59,204 nucleotides of DNA from an uncultured bacterium. GTDB taxonomy: Bacteria; Patescibacteriota; Microgenomatia; UBA1400; UBA12108. Shown here in pieces: positions 6,960 through 14,796 of the stretch. Position numbers and translations under genes: made by a program. How positions within the stretch are numbered: the stretch's first letter is position 1; each line of letters starts with the position of its first letter. The stretch is taken from the NCBI GenBank assembly GCA_903945195.1, contig CAJAUT010000023.1, positions 1-59,204 on the forward strand, given 5' to 3'. The notes under the pieces are model-generated. The model did not search any database, was not told the DNA's origin, and saw nothing but the letters and a program-made list of their open reading frames with translations.

Positions 6960-7250
6960 CAAAATACATAGATGTTAGATAAGGTGTATATGGATCTCAA
7001 TTATTACTAATTGTTTGGACTATATCTTTAATACTTTCATTCATAAAACCACGGAATGATTTAGTATATGTTGGCGTATTATAGCGATATCTAGTCGCTA
7101 TCTCTCGCCTGAGGCGAGAAGTCTCTACGGGGGGTGTATACAGCTATGCTGTTATACGCCCTTCCCACGGTGTTAGCCTAAAGTGTTCAATCTTAGGTAT
7201 TCTCCGTTATAAGCCAAATTTATTTCCTCGACATGTTTTGGGTATTTTCT
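6960..7250 (-). ncRNA. group I intron in 23S rRNA after U2504 (E. coli numbering), no ORF
   Basis: 23S sequence breaks between CCTCGAT (exon 1, ends 7251) and GTCGGCTC (exon 2, begins 6959). The intron begins at 7250 and ends with G at 6960. The exon end CCTCGAT pairs over 7 bp with GTCGAGG, found 19 nt into the intron, with a U.G pair at the cleavage site, which is the standard group I P1 helix. An S-type element (AAGATATAGTCC, 7017-7028) and an R-type element (GTAGAGACTT, about 7119-7128) are present. The intron is 291 nt and has no reading frame, so it should be a self-splicing ribozyme that depends on other sources for mobility. It lies in the peptidyl-transferase centre by my alignment. 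Confidence 0.88.
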
Positions 7251-7815: not shown

Positions 7816-8551
7816 CACTTATGTTGATATATCAATCTAAATTGATACTCTTTATTATTTCTAATAAAGTCTTCACGTCGCCATGAAGGTCGGACTATAT
7901 CATGTCCTAATTAAATAGGACGTCGACATATAGTCTCTGAGGATTCTTAAATCACTTGATGATGTCACTGATGTTATATTTTCGTTTACGACTAGCTCCT
8001 GGGTTAAGAGTTTCTCTCAGCCTAACAATTTCGTGTAAACCCGCAATTTTTCTGTGACCCCCATCTTCCATTATTTTGGCTATTAGACAAAAAATATGAA
8101 AATTACTTTTCTTAGTCTTTGAAACTAGCGGATATTTTTGGAAAAAAGGAATTACTTTAAATATTACGTCCGTCGGATTGGTTACATCGAATGAAAAGAG
8201 TTGATCTCGCTTGCGTACTTTGATAATTCCACAGTTTAGGGTGGTTTGAAGTAATTTGAGTAATGCTGGGTCTTTTTGAGACACATTAAAACTCATTACG
8301 ACTTGCCACTTAACTGCGTAATCATCTTTTTTACGAAGCGAAACATTAAAACTCCCTTCACCCTCTGTAAATCCGGCGAGGAAATATCCCATTGCATCAT
8401 CTTGATAACCTAAGTCTTTCCTGCTGATTTTCCGCACTGTACGCATTTTCACTATGATATTAATTTACCATAGTAGCGACAGATACTACAACCGCTTGTG
8501 CGGTACGGGGATTCCAGCAAATAGTCGACTTTTATAACTACAATTTTGTTC
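7816..8551 (-). ncRNA. group I intron in 23S rRNA after U1917, with LAGLIDADG ORF
   Basis: Helix 69 sequence GTAACTAT (ends 8552) is separated from AACTGTTCTATGG (begins 7815) by 736 nt. The intron ends with G. Exon TAACTAT pairs with GTAGTTA ten nucleotides into the intron, ending in the U.G pair expected of group I P1. An R-type element (CAGAGACTATA, about 7930-7940) and an S-type element (GATATAGTCC, about 7893-7902) lie together near the 3' end, downstream of the endonuclease gene. The insertion site corresponds to position 1917 of E. coli 23S by local alignment. Group I introns with LAGLIDADG genes are known near here in other bacteria. Confidence 0.88.
7952..8452 (-). CDS. LAGLIDADG homing endonuclease, single-motif, in the 23S intron
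   Basis: A 166-residue protein with one LAGLIDADG motif at residues 22-35 (FLAGFTEGEGSF, with the metal-binding acidic residue near its end). One-motif family members act as homodimers and cut intronless rRNA genes at the insertion site, which spreads the intron. The gene lies inside the intron at 7816-8551 on the same strand as the rRNA. The initiator is the first ATG of the frame, but M21 (MGYFLAGF) is an equally good start close to the domain edge. No stop or frameshift interrupts it, so it may be active. Confidence 0.92.
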   Translation of the reverse strand: MKMRTVRKISRKDLGYQDDAMGYFLAGFTEGEGSFNVSLRKKDDYAVKWQVVMSFNVSQKDPALLKLLQTTLNCGIIKVRKRDQLFSFDVTNPTDVIFKVIPFFQKYPLVSKTKKSNFHIFCLIAKIMEDGGHRKIAGLHEIVRLRETLNPGASRKRKYNISDIIK

Positions 8552-10584
8552 ATAGTTACTGCTGCCGTTCACCAGGGCTTCAATCAAAGACTATTCCGAA
8601 CAAGTCGGAGTTATCCTCTCAGTTAACCTTCTGGCACTGGGCAGGCCTCAGCCCGTATACGTTGGCTTACGCCTTCGCACAGACCTGTGTTTTTGTTAAA
8701 CAGTCACTTTGAATTCTTTATCTGCGTTCCATAATTTGATACAAGTACCAAAATACAGAATAGGCATCTCCCTAAGTTACGCCTAGCTAATTTGCCGAGT
8801 TCCTTAAGGAAGGTTCTCTCGTCCACCTTGGTATACTCTACCAGTTCACCTGTGTCGGTTTGCGGTACGGCTAATTAATATTCTCATTGCGAAGATTTTC
8901 TTGGACCCAGAAATACATAAAGTCACTCCAGCCGAAGCTGAAATTCCCCATCGCGCCTCAGGTAATAACGTATGATACGGATTTTCCTATATCTTACTGC
9001 TTTGACGCTTGGACCCAAATTCAATAATGGGCTCTACTTTTCCTAGACCGTCCCTCCCCAATTGATAACGAACACTAATTAGGACAGGAATATCAACCTG
9101 TTATCCATCGGCTACGCCGGCATTACACCAGCCTCACCTTAGGGCCGCCTAACCCCACGTCGACAAACGTTGCGTGGGAAACCTTGAACATTCGGTGTGG
9201 GGGATTCTCACCCCCATCTCGCTACTCATCCCGCCATTCTCACTTCTAACCGCTCCACCGTCCCTTACAGGGCGACTTCACTGCTGTTAGAACGCTCCCC
9301 TACCAGTTATTGAAAATAAATTTTCAACAATTCCGCAACTTCGGTACATAACTTGAGCCTCGATGAATCTTCGGCGCCACCTTCCATCGACTAGTGAGCT
9401 GTTACGCTTTCTTTCAAGGATGGCTGCTTCTGAGCCGACCTCCTAGCTGTTTATGGACAATGACTTCCTTGACCCACTTAGTTATGATTTTGAGACCTTA
9501 ATTGACGATCTGGGATGTTACCCTTTTGCCCCTGGAACTTAGCTCCCAGGGACTGACTCCCGAGCAGAACATGATGGTATTCGGAGTTTGATAAAGTGAA
9601 AGGCCTTGCGACCTCGCACCTTTTCAGTGCTCTACCCCCACACATGCATTCACTCGAGGCTATACCTAAATATATTTCGGGGAGAACCAGCTATCTCCGG
9701 GTTCGATTGGCATATTACCCCTAACCACAAGTCATCCGAGCGATTTGCAGCTCACAACGGTTCGGTCCTTCCCCCAATTTTACTTGGGGTTCAACCTGCT
9801 CATGGTTAGCTCACTCCGGTTTCGGGTCTTGGACGCACTGCTTAACGGACTATTCATCCTCGCTTTCACTACGCCTCCGTGACGATATCACTTAGACTAG
9901 CAGTACATGCAAACTCGACGGGTCATTCTTCAATAGGCACGACATCAGTCACCTTAGGCGACCTCTGTCTGTTTGTTAGCATACGGTTTCAGGTACTATT
10001 TCACTGAGTGTCTCACTCATCTTTTCACCTTTCCCTCACGGTACTCGTTCACTATCGGTAATAATGTGTATTTAGCCTTGCCCCGTGGTCGGGGCGGATT
10101 CCGCGCGGAGTTTGCCGTCTCCGGGCGTACTTAGGTGCCAAACTGATATTTTCAAGTTTTCGCTTACACGACTTTCACGTCCTATGGTCAACTATTCCAC
10201 GTTGTTCTGCTAACTTGAAAATACGTTATGTCTGGTCCTGCAACACCGAGATAAATCTCGGTTTAGGCTCTTCCCTTTTCGCTCACCGCTTACTAAGGGA
10301 ATCTCATTCGATTTCTTTTCCTCCGGGTACTTAGATGTTTCAGTTCTCCGGGTTACCTACCTTATATAAATACAAGGTACAGTCGCATTACTGCGACCGG
10401 GGTTACCCCATTCAGACACCGCCGGGTCAAAGGATTATGGCTCCTCACCGACGACTTTCGCGGCCTTATACGTCTTTCTTCGGCACATTATTCCAAGGCA
10501 TCCACCGTATGCTTTATTTGAGTAGCTTGATACTAATTAATAAACAATATTTCTAATGCTATTTGATGCTTTCCTACTCTTCAC

Positions 10585-10596
10585 TTGTTAAAGTAC
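10585..10596 (-). promoter_or_regulatory. boxA-like antitermination site in the 23S leader
   Basis: The minus strand reads GTACTTTAACAA, close to the rRNA boxA core (CTCTTTAACAA in E. coli). The same 12 bases occur in the 16S leader (14839-14850). It lies at the base of the 23S processing stem. Confidence 0.6.
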
Positions 10597-10599
10597 AAA

Positions 10600-10656
10600 A
10601 TCTAGCAATAAGATGCTAGATTGTAGAAACCAGCTTAGGGACTAATTTCTACAATC
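10600..10656. repeat. two tandem hairpins in the tRNA-Ala/23S leader
   Basis: The first inverted repeat is ATCTAGCA/TGCTAGAT around 10601-10620. The second is GATTGTAGAAA (10619-10629) with TTTCTACAATC (10646-10656), 11 of 11. They lie between tRNA-Ala and 23S and may help separate the precursors. Neither has a T run. Confidence 0.55.
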
Positions 10657-10673
10657 AAGAATCCTAGTGTGTT

Positions 10674-10742
10674 TAGCTTGCGGCTAACGGCGTACGGCTT
10701 ACAGTAGCTACTGTATGCTGCGAGCTGCATGCTGTAGGCTAA
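10674..10742. repeat. imperfect palindromic element next to tRNA-Ala
   Basis: About 69 bp of near-palindrome centred on a perfect 16-bp palindrome, TACAGTAGCTACTGTA (10700-10715). The arms contain TACGGCTTACAG, which is also present inside truB (39988-39999). I interpret it as a copy of a small dispersed palindromic repeat. Confidence 0.5.
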
Positions 10743-10745
10743 CTG

Positions 10746-10818
10746 TGGACCCGTGGGGGATCGAACCCCAGACCTCGTCATTGCAAATGACGCGCTCTAC
10801 CAACTGAGCTACGAGCCC
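10746..10818 (-). tRNA. tRNA-Ala(TGC)
   Basis: A 73-nt cloverleaf on the minus strand: acceptor GGGCTCG/CGGGTCC, D arm GCTCAGTTGGTAGAGC, anticodon stem CGTCA/TGACG with loop TTTGCAA (anticodon TGC), and T arm with the normal TTCGATC loop. CCA is not encoded. It lies upstream of 23S, as in many rRNA operons. Confidence 0.95.
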
Positions 10819-10833
10819 AATATGGCAAATGAA

Positions 10834-10880
10834 GTGCCCCGCCTGCATCGCTTATGCGAAGCATTGCGGGCAGGTCTACC
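10834..10880. repeat. dispersed hairpin repeat, copy 1
   Basis: GCCTGCATCGC followed by GCGAAGCATTGCGGGCAGG forms an imperfect hairpin. A similar element lies at 11209-11256, sharing CCTGCATC and CACTGCGGGCAGG-like arms. Both are in the rRNA spacer. Confidence 0.5.
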
Positions 10881-10937
10881 AGATGCCCACTTTAGATTTA
10901 TGTTAAAGGTGCGGATATACGTCATCACGACGAGAAT

Positions 10938-10960
10938 AAAAAAATCTCCCTTGCGGGAGA
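10938..10960 (-). terminator. Rho-independent terminator in the 16S-23S spacer
   Basis: On the minus strand TCTCCC-GCAA-GGGAGA is followed by seven T. A strong canonical terminator facing the same way as the rRNA genes, upstream of tRNA-Ala and 23S. Confidence 0.85.
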
Positions 10961-11066
10961 ACTCCTAAACCAGATGTGAAACAAAATATTTACAGGCGAG
11001 AGTATCGAAGTATTTGGCCTGTTATTTTGATTTGCAGCATACTTGGGTTAAATGCTCTCCTGAGCG
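10938..11066 (-). ncRNA. possible small RNA between a spacer promoter and terminator
   Basis: The promoter at 11073-11102 and the terminator at 10938-10960 would define a transcript of about 130 nt. It contains a GCAT/ATGC hairpin, an AACAGGC/GCCTGT helix and the terminator hairpin. I see no match to SRP RNA, 6S RNA or tmRNA. It also contains a 16-codon frame starting ATGCTGCAAATC, without a well-placed ribosome-binding site. This is a prediction from position only. Confidence 0.3.
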
Positions 11067-11072
11067 AACGCA

Positions 11073-11102
11073 ATTGTAACTCACAAAGGGGTGGTCGGTC
11101 AA
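11073..11102 (-). promoter_or_regulatory. promoter in the rRNA spacer
   Basis: Minus strand: TTGACC (11097-11102), an 18-nt spacer, then TACAAT (11073-11078). It reads towards the terminator at 10938-10960, so it would make a short RNA unless the terminator is bypassed into tRNA-Ala and 23S. Confidence 0.5.
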
Positions 11103-11208
11103 GGGTTAAAGCTGAGTAATTATGTAATTAGACCCTCCAGGTAGAGATTTTAGACTAAAACGGTTACAATATCATTCGACAAGTTAATATTTGGGCAAGT
11201 GAGGCTAG

Positions 11209-11256
11209 TGGCCCTCCTGCATCAGCTGTGCTGAAAGCACTGCGGGCAGGTAGAAC
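11209..11256. repeat. dispersed hairpin repeat, copy 2
   Basis: CCTGCATCAGC and GCTGAAAGCACTGCGGGCAG form an imperfect hairpin related to copy 1 at 10834-10880. It lies about 55 bp upstream of tRNA-Ile. Confidence 0.5.
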
Positions 11257-11310
11257 GCAATCCTGATAAAATACTTGCGTGCTCGAGAGTTAGTTAACAA
11301 TTAAATAGTT

Positions 11311-11382
11311 GGGCGCGTAGTTCAGTGGTAGAACGCTTTCCTGATAAGAAAGAGGTCCATAGTTCGATTCTATGTGCGCCCA
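11311..11382 (+). tRNA. tRNA-Ile(GAT), on the strand opposite to the rRNA
   Basis: A 72-nt cloverleaf: acceptor GGGCGCG/TGCGCCC, D arm GTTCAGTGGTAGAAC, anticodon stem CTTTC/GAAAG with loop CTGATAA (anticodon GAT), and T loop TTCGATT. CCA is not encoded. It lies in the 16S-23S spacer, where tRNA-Ile is common, but reads against the rRNA genes, so it must have its own promoter. Confidence 0.95.
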
Positions 11383-11394
11383 CTCCAGATCATC

Positions 11395-11658
11395 CTAATT
11401 AAAATTAATATCTTCAAAAGATGGTGAGGGTGAGACAGTCGAGGCTGTTCCCGTACTAGAGATTGAGAATGAAGCGAAATCGGTTGGAATTCTGTAATCA
11501 GAACCTGCTCTGAAACTCTTTTCTGGAGTACCTTCTAAGAATACGTTCACTTGAGTGCACATAATATTTGGACTCATAAGTGAAGAACAGTCCAAGCTTA
11601 TCCCGAGATAGCTTATGGCTAACAGTACAACAATTAAGTTATTCAATCTTTTTTCCAT
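11395..11658 (-). CDS. small secreted or membrane-anchored protein, unknown
   Basis: An 87-residue protein with a hydrophobic N-terminal segment (LIVVLLAISYLGISL, about residues 8-22), two following Cys residues and a Ser/Thr-rich C-terminal half. A signal peptide or single anchor is likely. No family recognised. AGGA precedes the ATG by about nine bases. It starts about 140 nt downstream of the hydrolase-like gene and ends 12 nt from the oppositely oriented tRNA-Ile. It lies inside the 16S-23S spacer. Confidence 0.5.
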   Translation of the reverse strand: MEKRLNNLIVVLLAISYLGISLDCSSLMSPNIMCTQVNVFLEGTPEKSFRAGSDYRIPTDFASFSISSTGTASTVSPSPSFEDINFN

Positions 11659-11714
11659 GCTTCATATCCTACATAAACAAGTCATTTTAATGCAATGCAT
11701 CAAACTGATTCAGA

Positions 11715-11767
11715 CAATGTTCCGTTGAATCGATTCATCGGAATATTGTTATGATGTTTCGAAACAT
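11715..11767. promoter_or_regulatory. two palindromes upstream of the small spacer gene
   Basis: CAATGTTCCGTTGAATC and GATTCATCGGAATATTG (11715-11748) are inverted copies with 15 of 17 matches. ATGTTTCGAAACAT (11754-11767) is a perfect 14-bp palindrome. They could be protein-binding sites. No regulator is identified. Confidence 0.4.
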
Positions 11768-11801
11768 AGTGACATTGCCTACAAGGTTACACCTTGAAGG
11801 T

Positions 11802-12281
11802 CTAGACCAGGGCCAGGGCGACGACATAGTTTTTGCCATACACCTTTAGACACTTGGGACAGGTGGTGTAGTAGAGGTAGACCTTGTTCGTCGTATTCAT
11901 GGACTTGATCCACTTGGGTGCATCCTGAAAGGGACCCTCAAAAACTTTGGTTTTGAACTTGCCAGTTAGTTTGATGTTCTCTTGGCCTTTAACCTCTTTG
12001 GTGACTGAGAGTAAATGCTCGCATTTCCAGGGCGAGAGATCGTAGCTCATCAAGATAAATTCATCTTTGGAGTCGGCCTTGGCTTTGGTAATTTCTGCCC
12101 AAGTATTGGTCATCATTTTGTTCATATCTAGAGGCATATAGAAAAAGCTGTGAGTGTAGGCGCGGACAAAGGGTTTGTTTTTGAACTCAAAGGTCTTGCC
12201 GTCCCAGTCTTTAGAATTGAAGCGTGGACAGCAACCTGTTTCATTGTCTTTGCTTAGTTTTGGAACATGATTTAGGGTCAT
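11802..12281 (-). CDS. conserved protein of the family often annotated as bacterial hydrolase
   Basis: A 159-residue soluble protein. It resembles a family I know mainly from clostridia and CPR genomes, recognisable by a CCPRF start region, an FVRAYTHSFFYMPLDM block, SPWKCEHLLSVTKEV, FKTKVFEGPF and a C-terminal YYTTCPKCLKVYGKNYVVALA. Database entries often call it hydrolase, but I know of no established activity. The CxxC pair and upstream Cys residues could bind metal. I start it at the ATG at 12281 because GGAGG lies five bases before it. The frame stays open further upstream, but that extension has no such signal. It is unusual to find a protein gene between 16S and 23S. Confidence 0.8.
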   Translation of the reverse strand: MTLNHVPKLSKDNETGCCPRFNSKDWDGKTFEFKNKPFVRAYTHSFFYMPLDMNKMMTNTWAEITKAKADSKDEFILMSYDLSPWKCEHLLSVTKEVKGQENIKLTGKFKTKVFEGPFQDAPKWIKSMNTTNKVYLYYTTCPKCLKVYGKNYVVALALV

Positions 12282-12345
12282 GTGACCTCCATCAAATATG
12301 TTTGTTTGGTAATAGTTTAAGTATATACCTGAAGTAAATCCCACG

Positions 12346-12380
12346 AAAAATACCCCGGGCAACTTTGGTTGCTTTAGGGG
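12346..12380 (-). terminator. probable terminator downstream of 16S
   Basis: On the minus strand CCCC-TAAA-GCAAC-CAAA-GTTGC-CC-GGGG forms an interrupted hairpin followed by TATTTTT. It lies just past the 16S processing stem and before the hydrolase-like gene. Confidence 0.55.
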
Positions 12381-12406
12381 TTAGGTAAAAGTATCTAGAT
12401 ACTTTG

Positions 12407-12420
12407 CAAAGAGATGGTAG
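12407..12420 (-). other. 3' arm of the 16S precursor processing stem
   Basis: CAAAGAGATGGTAG (plus strand) is the exact reverse complement of CTACCATCTCTTTG at 14797-14810 on the other side of 16S (14 of 14). Such flanking stems are cut by RNase III. Confidence 0.8.
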
Positions 12421-12579
12421 CACTCGTTTAGAAAATTGAGAGCTAATTATTTTATACAGTCAATTAGTTAAAAACTGCGACGTAACTTTTTTCCCCATAC
12501 AGGGCGGGGTCGTGATTCCCCTTTATTACTCCTAGAAAGGAGGTGATCCATCCGCTCCTTCCAGAACGGATACCTTGTT

Positions 12580-13285
12580 CATGTTTATTCCCCGACTTTC
12601 GTGGGGCATGGACTATATCTTCATCCTTGATATAAACGAAAGTATTTCTTTTTGTCTGGATGTGATGATCCGATAGTTGTAATAAAACTTTTATAACTAT
12701 CAGCTTTGACAAAGAATCTCCAATATTTTGGATCAATGTTCCTACTTGGATTATGAATAATCCCAGTGTGAATACTAAATTCCTCAAGTATTGTTTTGAT
12801 CTGATTTAGATCATCAAAATTCTTTTGTGCAAAGTATATATAGAACCGAACTTTCGAAGATTTGGCTATGCCTCCTTCTGCATCGAAATAACCTCGGACA
12901 TAATCAAGTTTATCTTGATCTGTTTTTATAGTTGTTTCGAGTAGAAGGGATTGAGAAAACTCTGTGATGTAAACATCACGTAGTTTTCCTTCTTGGTATA
13001 TCCAAGCTCTTCCACTTAGTCGTTTGATCCCTAGTGACAACATTTTTGCAAATGCCATCCCTTTTTGGGCAATACGATATGTGGTTTTGCGTTTGGTCCC
13101 ATCATGTAACATTCCAAGCAAATATGCTTTCGTAATATAAGGCGCTTGCGTATAGTCTCTACGGAGTCCTTGATTTTTATTTCGAGGTTCCCTCGGTATT
13201 CCCATGGTCCTATTATAGAACTTTAGGCTTCACCGATACAGCAAGATTTATCAAAAAAATTACTTTTTTTGGTCGCAACATATAT
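12580..13285 (-). ncRNA. group I intron in 16S rRNA after U1498 (decoding site), with LAGLIDADG ORF
   Basis: 16S sequence AAGTCGT (ending 13286) and AACAAGGTA (starting 12579) are contiguous in other bacteria but lie 706 nt apart here. The intron ends with G. Exon GTCGT pairs with GCGAC ten nucleotides into the intron, ending in a U.G pair, as expected for group I P1. An R-type element (GTAGAGACTATACGC, about 13149-13163) and an S-type element (AAGATATAGTCC, about 12609-12620) flank most of the endonuclease gene. The site corresponds to 1498/1499, six bases from A1492-A1493, and it splits the site of the widely used 1492R primer. Confidence 0.88.
12621..13205 (-). CDS. LAGLIDADG homing endonuclease, two-motif, in the 16S intron
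   Basis: A 194-residue protein with two LAGLIDADG-type motifs, YLLGMLHDG at about 28-36 and DYVRGYFDAEGG at about 101-112. Two-motif members act as monomers and cut an asymmetric site. The first motif is degenerate (LHDG in place of FDAEG), but an acidic residue is kept. The first 20 codons overlap the R element of the ribozyme and the stop overlaps the S element, so RNA structure and coding sequence share bases. The start codon is an ATG without an obvious ribosome-binding site. It is expected to home the intron into intronless 16S genes, and a splicing (maturase) role is possible. Confidence 0.9.
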   Translation of the reverse strand: MGIPREPRNKNQGLRRDYTQAPYITKAYLLGMLHDGTKRKTTYRIAQKGMAFAKMLSLGIKRLSGRAWIYQEGKLRDVYITEFSQSLLLETTIKTDQDKLDYVRGYFDAEGGIAKSSKVRFYIYFAQKNFDDLNQIKTILEEFSIHTGIIHNPSRNIDPKYWRFFVKADSYKSFITTIGSSHPDKKKYFRLYQG

Positions 13286-13843
13286 ACGACTTAGCGCTCA
13301 TCGCTGACCTTACCTTAGGTGGGCTCATCTCTTGCGAGTTTGAGACACCAACTTCAGGTACTGCCAACTTTGCTCACTTGACGGGCGGTGTGTACAAGGA
13401 GCGAGAACGTATTCACCGCAGCCTGCTGATCTGCGATTACTACCGATTCCGACTTCATGAGGGCGAGTTGCAGCCCTCAATCTGAACTGAGGGAAGTTTT
13501 AAAGGATTGGCTCCCCATTACTGGTTGGCTACCCATTGTACTTCCCATTGTAGGATGTGTGTGGCCCCAGGTGTAAGCGTCATGCTGACTTGACGTCGTC
13601 CCCTCCTTCCTCCCTTGATACTATCAAGAGCAGTCTCGCGTGAAAATTCAACACACGATAGGGGTTGCGTTCGTTATTCTACTTAAAGAAACGTCTCACG
13701 ACACGAACTGACGACAGCCATGCAACAGCTGTATATCACTCTCGAAGAAGTCCAGCTTTCGCTGGATTTGCAGATATATTAAACCTGGGTGAGGTCTTTC
13801 GCTTTGTATCGAATTAAACCACATGCTCCACCGGTTGTGCGCT

Positions 13844-13884
<41 letters not shown>

Positions 13885-14680
13885 TCCCAGGCGGGACACT
13901 TAACGCGTTAGCTTACGCCGACCAGAAAAATCCGATCAGCTAGTGTCCATCGTTTACGGCTAGGACTACAGGGGTCTCTAATCCCTTTCGCTCCCCTAGC
14001 TGTCGTCTATCAGCGTCATGAATTACCTAAGTATCTGCCTTCGCCTTTGGTGTTCCTCTTGATATCAACGGATTTCACCCCTCCACCAAGAATTCCGATA
14101 CTCCCGATAACCATCTAGTCTTGCAGTATACACAGCATGTCTTCCGTTGAGCGGAAGCCTTTAACCATATACTTACAAAACCGCCTACAGAACGCTTTAC
14201 GCCCAATAAATCCGGATAACGCTTGCACCCTACGTATTACCGAGGCTTCTGGCACGTAGTTAGCAGGTGCTTTCTAGAAAGGTACCTTCATTTTTTTATT
14301 CCCTTTCCACAGTGGTTTACGACCCGAAGGCCTTCTTCCCACACGCGGCGTCGCTGCGTCAGACTTTCGTCCATTGCGCAAGATTCCCAGTTGCTGCCAC
14401 CCGTAGGTGTAGGACCCGTGTCTCAGTGTCCTTGTGGGGGGTCGTGCTCTCACACCCCCTACCCGTCGTAGCCTTGGTGAGCCATTACCTCACCAACTAG
14501 CTGATAGGATACAGGCTCCTCTCTTCGCGTCCGGTAAAGGACTTTGACCCGTAGGCCATATGCGGTATTACCCCGCCTTTCGGCGAGCTATCCCCCACGT
14601 AGAGGTAGATTCCTATATATTACTCACCCGTCTGCCACTAAAACAATATTGCTACTGAAATCGTTCGACTTGCATGCTTA

Positions 14681-14723
<43 letters not shown>

Positions 14724-14796
14724 AAAAAGAGTTAAATCCAAAAGATTTATCGTGAAGATTATTAGTCTTCACTGTTACTCAAAGTTAAAAACGGTA

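Follow-up and report, generated by a model that had tools for sequence, protein, structure and literature searches.

The single-copy 16S rRNA gene of a Microgenomates-type CPR bacterium almost certainly carries a mobile group I intron with an endonuclease gene. Support at the sequence level comes from the boundaries of the insert, its fold, the covariation of its helices, an intact endonuclease under purifying selection, and the patchy occupancy of the insertion site. The window referred to below is the whole stretch of DNA that was analysed (59,204 nucleotides).

Host genome and insertion site

The host is an ultra-small Microgenomates-type CPR bacterium with a genome of 1.05 Mb (97.6% complete) and one 16S gene. 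The nearest relative of its endonuclease was found in the same family (genome G001) and matches record QEVC01000014.1, deposited as Candidatus Microgenomates. The 16S gene occupies positions 12542..14729 of the minus strand, with an approximate 3' end placed after the anti-Shine-Dalgarno CCUCC, and is interrupted between U1498 and A1499 (E. coli numbering) by the 706-nt intron (12580..13285, minus strand), whose last base is a G (12580). On the minus strand the junctions read ...GCTAAGTCGT(13286) / ATATATGTTGCGAC...ATAAACATG(12580) / AACAAGGTAT..., and the 3' boundary reads ...AATAAACATG / AACAAGGTATCCG.... Three same-family relatives have an uninterrupted AAGTCGTAACAAGGTA at 1498 (loci L034, L035, and L037 in genomes G002, G003, and G004), and because the empty site is seen in them, the intron boundaries are directly set; the coordinates given for the insert in the original prediction are exact.

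The insertion site adjoins A1492/A1493 at the decoding site. Since this is the only 16S copy in a genome that is 97.6% complete, the insert must be either removed or tolerated. It also splits the site of primer 1492R, as had been predicted: the best match of this primer has 7 mismatches in the gene as it stands, versus 2 after in silico joining of the exons. The further expectation, that the organism would be missed in PCR surveys, is valid for 1492R-based assays and not beyond those: no mismatch was seen for 27F, 926R, and 1391R, a single one each for 341F and 806R, and 2 for 515F. The intron illustrates why such organisms are out of reach of 1492R-based PCR.

Several other features were observed in the rRNA region of the window. 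Two further group I introns are located in the 23S gene (6997-7125 and 7871-8452, minus strand; Intron_gpI E 1.2e-5 and 4.7e-5), the second of which overlaps a 166-aa LAGLIDADG_1 ORF (7952-8452, E 1.3e-21). The 16S-23S spacer (10532-12542) contains tRNA-Ala (TGC, minus strand), tRNA-Ile (GAT), which is encoded oppositely on the plus strand, and a 186-aa ORF in which a Bact_hydrolase domain (PF20603) was recognized. The rRNA genes are thus separated by about 2 kb that include a protein gene.

Structure and comparative support of the ribozyme

The insert had been proposed to be a group I ribozyme, and covariance searching (cmscan) of the region gave two matches to the Rfam family RF00028 (Intron_gpI), one in the 3' half (31.5 bits, E 4.4e-6) and one in the 5' half (25.8 bits, E 2.3e-4). 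The group I signal is thus present in both halves, though both scores fall below the curated gathering cut-off of 50 bits, which is a database threshold and not a biological defining feature. An Rfam search at that threshold missed the window intron, for which an E-value search of a small region was needed, and a whole-genome Intron_gpI search reported only two 23S introns, with the 16S intron absent. Several same-site homologues, ORF-bearing or ORF-less, exceed 50 bits in one piece (66.0 for L092, 61.1 for L096, and 60.2 for L099). A group II intron was rejected as a candidate, with no group II family among the matches up to E 10. The window intron probably belongs to subgroup IB4, given its homology to archaeal introns at 1498 that are classed as IB4 in PMC6125680.

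For comparative analysis, 374 genomes of the class were searched, 28 of which contain a homologous endonuclease; in 25 of the 28, the endonuclease or its remnant sits in a 1498 insert with resolvable ends, giving 25 same-site introns. Addition of other same-site introns extended this set to 39 with parsable stems. A further set of 12 cores, comprising six with the ORF cut from the P8 loop and six that are naturally ORF-less, was used for RNAalifold.

The expected P1, in which the last five bases of the 5' exon (GUCGU, 1494-1498; 13286..13290, minus strand) pair with GCGAC of the internal guide and end in a U.G at the 5' splice site, is present in the window; none of the 25 same-site introns has lost this U.G, any of the five pairs of P1, P7, or the terminal G, and all listed same-site introns have the terminal G followed by AACAAGG. 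The 8-nt guide GUUGCGAC (13272..13279, minus strand) is the complement of the joined-exon sequence GUCGUAAC: its upstream GUU part pairs with the AAC that opens the 3' exon (P10), and its GCGAC part with the 5' exon (P1). The same guide occurs in 20 of the 25 introns, and the guides pair with both exons; P10 is complete in the window and incomplete in three relatives (L003, L014, and L017). The R- and S-type elements that had been noted were both found, as GAGACUA (P7 5') and AAGAUAUAGUCC (J8/7-P7 3'). Within R, the P7 5' strand GACUA (13153..13157, minus strand) pairs with UAGUC (12615-12611), the 3' part of the S element AAGAUAUAGUC (J8/7 plus the P7 3' strand; 12611..12621, minus strand).

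The remaining helices, all on the minus strand, are as follows. P2 forms a hairpin (13252..13271) that is paired in 92% versus 54% in shuffles among the 39 introns, and P4 (CGGU 13235-13232 / ACCG 13197-13194) encloses P5 within 13194..13235. P3 is formed by CUUGC (13241..13245) and GCAAG (13145..13149); it is fully paired in 39/39 introns with 21 distinct stems (100% versus 74% in shuffles, maximum 82%), and 4 of its 5 pairs are compensated. P8 pairing reached 94% versus 72% when shuffled (39 introns), and a P9 hairpin (CCCCAC-GAAA-GUCGGGG, 12590..12606) was identified from both the covariance match and RNAalifold. Unaided, RNAalifold recovered P1, P2, P3, P4, P8, and P9 from the 12 cores, with 26 of 43 pairs compensated. 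When P1, P3, P7, and P10 were counted together, they were 97.7% paired, and the covariation score was 0.288 versus 0.126 when shuffled (0/500) and at most 0.092 when slid. The covarying helices are P2, P3, P4, P8, and P9, and P1 covaries with the exon, whereas P7 (GACUA/UAGUC) is invariant in 25/25 and has a single compensated pair (G-C) among the 12 cores. The proposed comparison of P1, P3, and P7 accordingly supports these helices, with P7 mostly invariant, and together with the covariance signal in both halves it upholds the group I assignment.

The guide also follows changes in the exon. In L022 and L029 the exon is GUUGU (C1496U) and the guide is GCAAC, whose A matches the changed exon, and in the archaeal L094 the exon GUCAU (G1497A) is compensated by the U of the guide GUGAC. 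The 16S genes of L022 and L029 also contain CCCATC, corresponding to G1405A. Base 1405 pairs with 1496 in helix 44. The decoding-site pair G1405-C1496 has thus become A1405-U1496 in L022 and L029, and the guide has changed accordingly, so that the compensation is three-way and links helix 44 with the intron.

According to the proposed mechanism, the ribozyme would fold once the precursor is transcribed, and the guide GUUGCGAC would hold both exons, the 5' one through P1 and the 3' one through P10. A guanosine would then bind P7, and two transesterifications would free the intron and ligate U1498 to A1499, so that GUCGUAACAAGG is restored. Alternatively, the insert might be an intervening sequence that is either retained or excised with no joining of the exons, leaving a 16S rRNA that is fragmented yet functional; processing of this type is known in bacterial 23S rRNA (PMC11270868), and some 1498 introns carry a 23S_rRNA_IVP protein in place of the endonuclease. 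However, such processing would leave the covarying core, the two-exon guide, the P1 compensation, and the invariant terminal G without purpose, and exons left unjoined at 1498, beside A1492/A1493, would detach the anti-Shine-Dalgarno tail, which makes this alternative very improbable. Archaeal bulge-helix-bulge (BHB) introns in rRNA genes also host LAGLIDADG genes, and removal of the insert by a tRNA splicing endonuclease might be imagined on that basis, but the group I fold and its covariation contradict it and the probability of such an origin is minute. No tRNA splicing endonuclease (PF01974) was detected in the genome, while four archaeal controls were positive, and the BHB candidate was rejected. 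A self-splicing group I intron is therefore the preferred reading of the insert.

The endonuclease and its overlap with the ribozyme

The intron contains an ORF of 194 aa (12621..13205, minus strand) that runs from an ATG at 13205 in P5 to a TGA at 12623-12621 beside J8/7 and matches the LAGLIDADG_3 homing endonuclease family (PF14528; E 7.6e-11, 42.6 bits versus a cut-off of 22.5). An AlphaFold2 model based on a 17-sequence alignment reached a pLDDT of 85.5, with residues 1-21 below 50. Because the best PDB matches in Foldseek were structures of I-DmoI (E 3.9e-9, TM 0.59-0.63), a double-motif single-chain enzyme encoded by a Desulfurococcus mobilis 23S intron, the protein is predicted to adopt a similar fold with two LAGLIDADG half-domains in one chain. 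At the sequence level no relationship to I-DmoI was detectable, as a PDB sequence search with the protein profile returned nothing up to E 1. The gene of I-DmoI sits in an archaeal BHB intron.

In the proposed homing cycle, the two-domain endonuclease would be made from either the unspliced precursor or the released intron and would cut uninterrupted 16S alleles at 1498, where the target would be AAGTCGTAACAAGG; repair would then copy the intron in. The protein might instead be a maturase or a decaying passenger of an intron that splices. LAGLIDADG proteins can act as maturases, four copies at 1498 have stops inside the matched stretch (L007, L011, L016, and L023), and ORF-less copies exist at this site. 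On the other hand, the occurrence of ORF-less introns means that a core can persist with no such protein, and the acidic positions of both LAGLIDADG motifs are kept in 17/17 aligned proteins (D35 invariant, position 110 E or D). The window ORF is also intact and under purifying selection, judging from its comparison with that of L003 (78% identical; dN 0.14, dS 0.66, dN/dS about 0.21). A maturase or passenger role is thus considered unlikely, and an active homing endonuclease is favored.

The ORF passes from the ATG at 13205 in P5 through P4', P6, R, P3', and P8 to its stop at 12621, the first base of S. The original prediction that the gene shares bases with R and S is fully correct for R, the whole of which lies inside the ORF, and barely so for S, where the overlap is a single base, the final A of the TGA stop. 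In many relatives the start codon is an ATG within P8 (MTKAYLLG...), a spot at which the window has ATT. Among the start regions of the 25 parsable introns, 13 have the local ATG and lack an in-frame ATG before R, 10 (the window included) show the reverse, one has both ATGs, and one has neither (Fisher p 3.5e-5, uncorrected for relatedness). Since the upstream ATG is nearly confined to introns that lack the local one, translation of the R element most likely results from relocation of the start codon, in agreement with the disordered residues 1-21.

Both ends of the ORF also contribute to P8, whose 5' strand (CCUUAUAU... in the window intron; 13127..13142, minus strand) and 3' strand (...AUAUCAAGG; 12625..12642, minus strand) consist of endonuclease codons, the latter being the final ones. 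In 32 introns, the two strands of the same intron paired at an average of -12.7 kcal/mol versus -6.4 kcal/mol when swapped between introns (best of 2000 swaps, -8.0); when the five basal positions were excluded, the values were -6.5 versus -3.5 kcal/mol (0/2000). Overlap between an endonuclease ORF and the core is known from group I introns in general (reviewed in PMC3984707), and the window intron resembles these in that its ORF overlaps P4', P6, R, P3', and P8. It differs in that ORFs of the window type supply both ends to P8, and in that the upstream start is found almost only in the absence of a local ATG.

Distribution, known systems and implications

The site is patchily occupied in the class: a pattern of S element plus 3' splice site at 1498 was found in 39 of 374 genomes and an uninterrupted site in 219, including the same-family relatives. 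The cargo of same-site cores may be a LAGLIDADG_3, a LAGLIDADG_2, or a 23S_rRNA_IVP protein, or none (208-257 nt). Three 1498 group I introns (L045, L046, and L055) contain a 23S_rRNA_IVP-type protein and no endonuclease, with Pfam applied to L045 only. Same-site relatives of the endonuclease were also seen in records that bear the labels Omnitrophota, Chloroflexi, Peregrinibacteria, and Berkelbacteria. In one genome (G375) an interrupted and an uninterrupted copy occur together; the intron is similar to the one in the Omnitrophota record L096, and contamination is a possible source of this copy.

A different arrangement was found in L092, L094, L099, and probably L107, in which an ORF-less 1498 intron is accompanied by a LAGLIDADG gene roughly 115-220 bases past the 3' end of the 16S gene. 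The 16S genes of L092, L094, and L099 are of archaeal type, and their external gene is a LAGLIDADG_3, located downstream of 16S in contrast to the window, where it lies inside the intron. L099 is labelled Elusimicrobia; its 16S end scores as archaeal and the last 40 bases are nearly identical to those of the Euryarchaeota record L092, and the contig is probably mis-binned. As a search of the phyla of L092, L094, and L099 revealed no further clear case of an external endonuclease gene, the arrangement appears to be sporadic. These data tentatively suggest, at slightly below even chances, that the 1498 element is modular, with one endonuclease lineage residing either inside the ribozyme, where its first and last codons also form P8 and where, in a subset, an upstream start brings R into translation, or outside it, downstream of 16S beside an ORF-less intron.

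The window intron is a well-supported further example of a system whose site, intron type, and endonuclease family have already been published for CPR bacteria (PMC11270868) and archaea (PMC6125680). In the available passages of the former study (Tsurumaki et al. 2024), CPR group I introns with LAGLIDADG_2/_3 are reported at 16IS10 and position 1498 is named; on our reading of its main text, 16IS10 equals 1498, and the window intron then agrees with these introns in site, ribozyme class, endonuclease family, and host group. The same passages place LAGLIDADG_3 only in 16S inserts and describe ORF-less and 23S_rRNA_IVP variants for CPR rRNA. They count CPR LAGLIDADG proteins as single-domain by Pfam, whereas the predicted fold of the window protein has two half-domains, and they contain no description of the ORF-P8 overlap or the exon-guide compensation. 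The archaeal IB4 introns at SSU/1498 (Nawrocki et al. 2018, PMC6125680), namely IB4.8 in Nanohaloarchaeota and IB4.19 and IB4.26 in Micrarchaeota, share the site and core with the window intron and differ in host domain. L094 (293 nt) is very probably IB4.8, given the equal length and organism group.

Taken together, the window intron offers a clean and complete case of a mobile ribozyme at the decoding site of a cell's sole 16S gene. The less familiar aspects of this system are the ORF ends within the P8 helix and the location of some archaeal endonuclease genes outside the intron. Testable details include the dual use of endonuclease codons as one of the ribozyme helices (P8), the guide sequence that follows exon changes at 1496 and 1497, and the external position of the gene in archaeal relatives. 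If the external-endonuclease loci are what they appear to be, they would represent collaborative homing at an rRNA gene, a process with described cases in phages.
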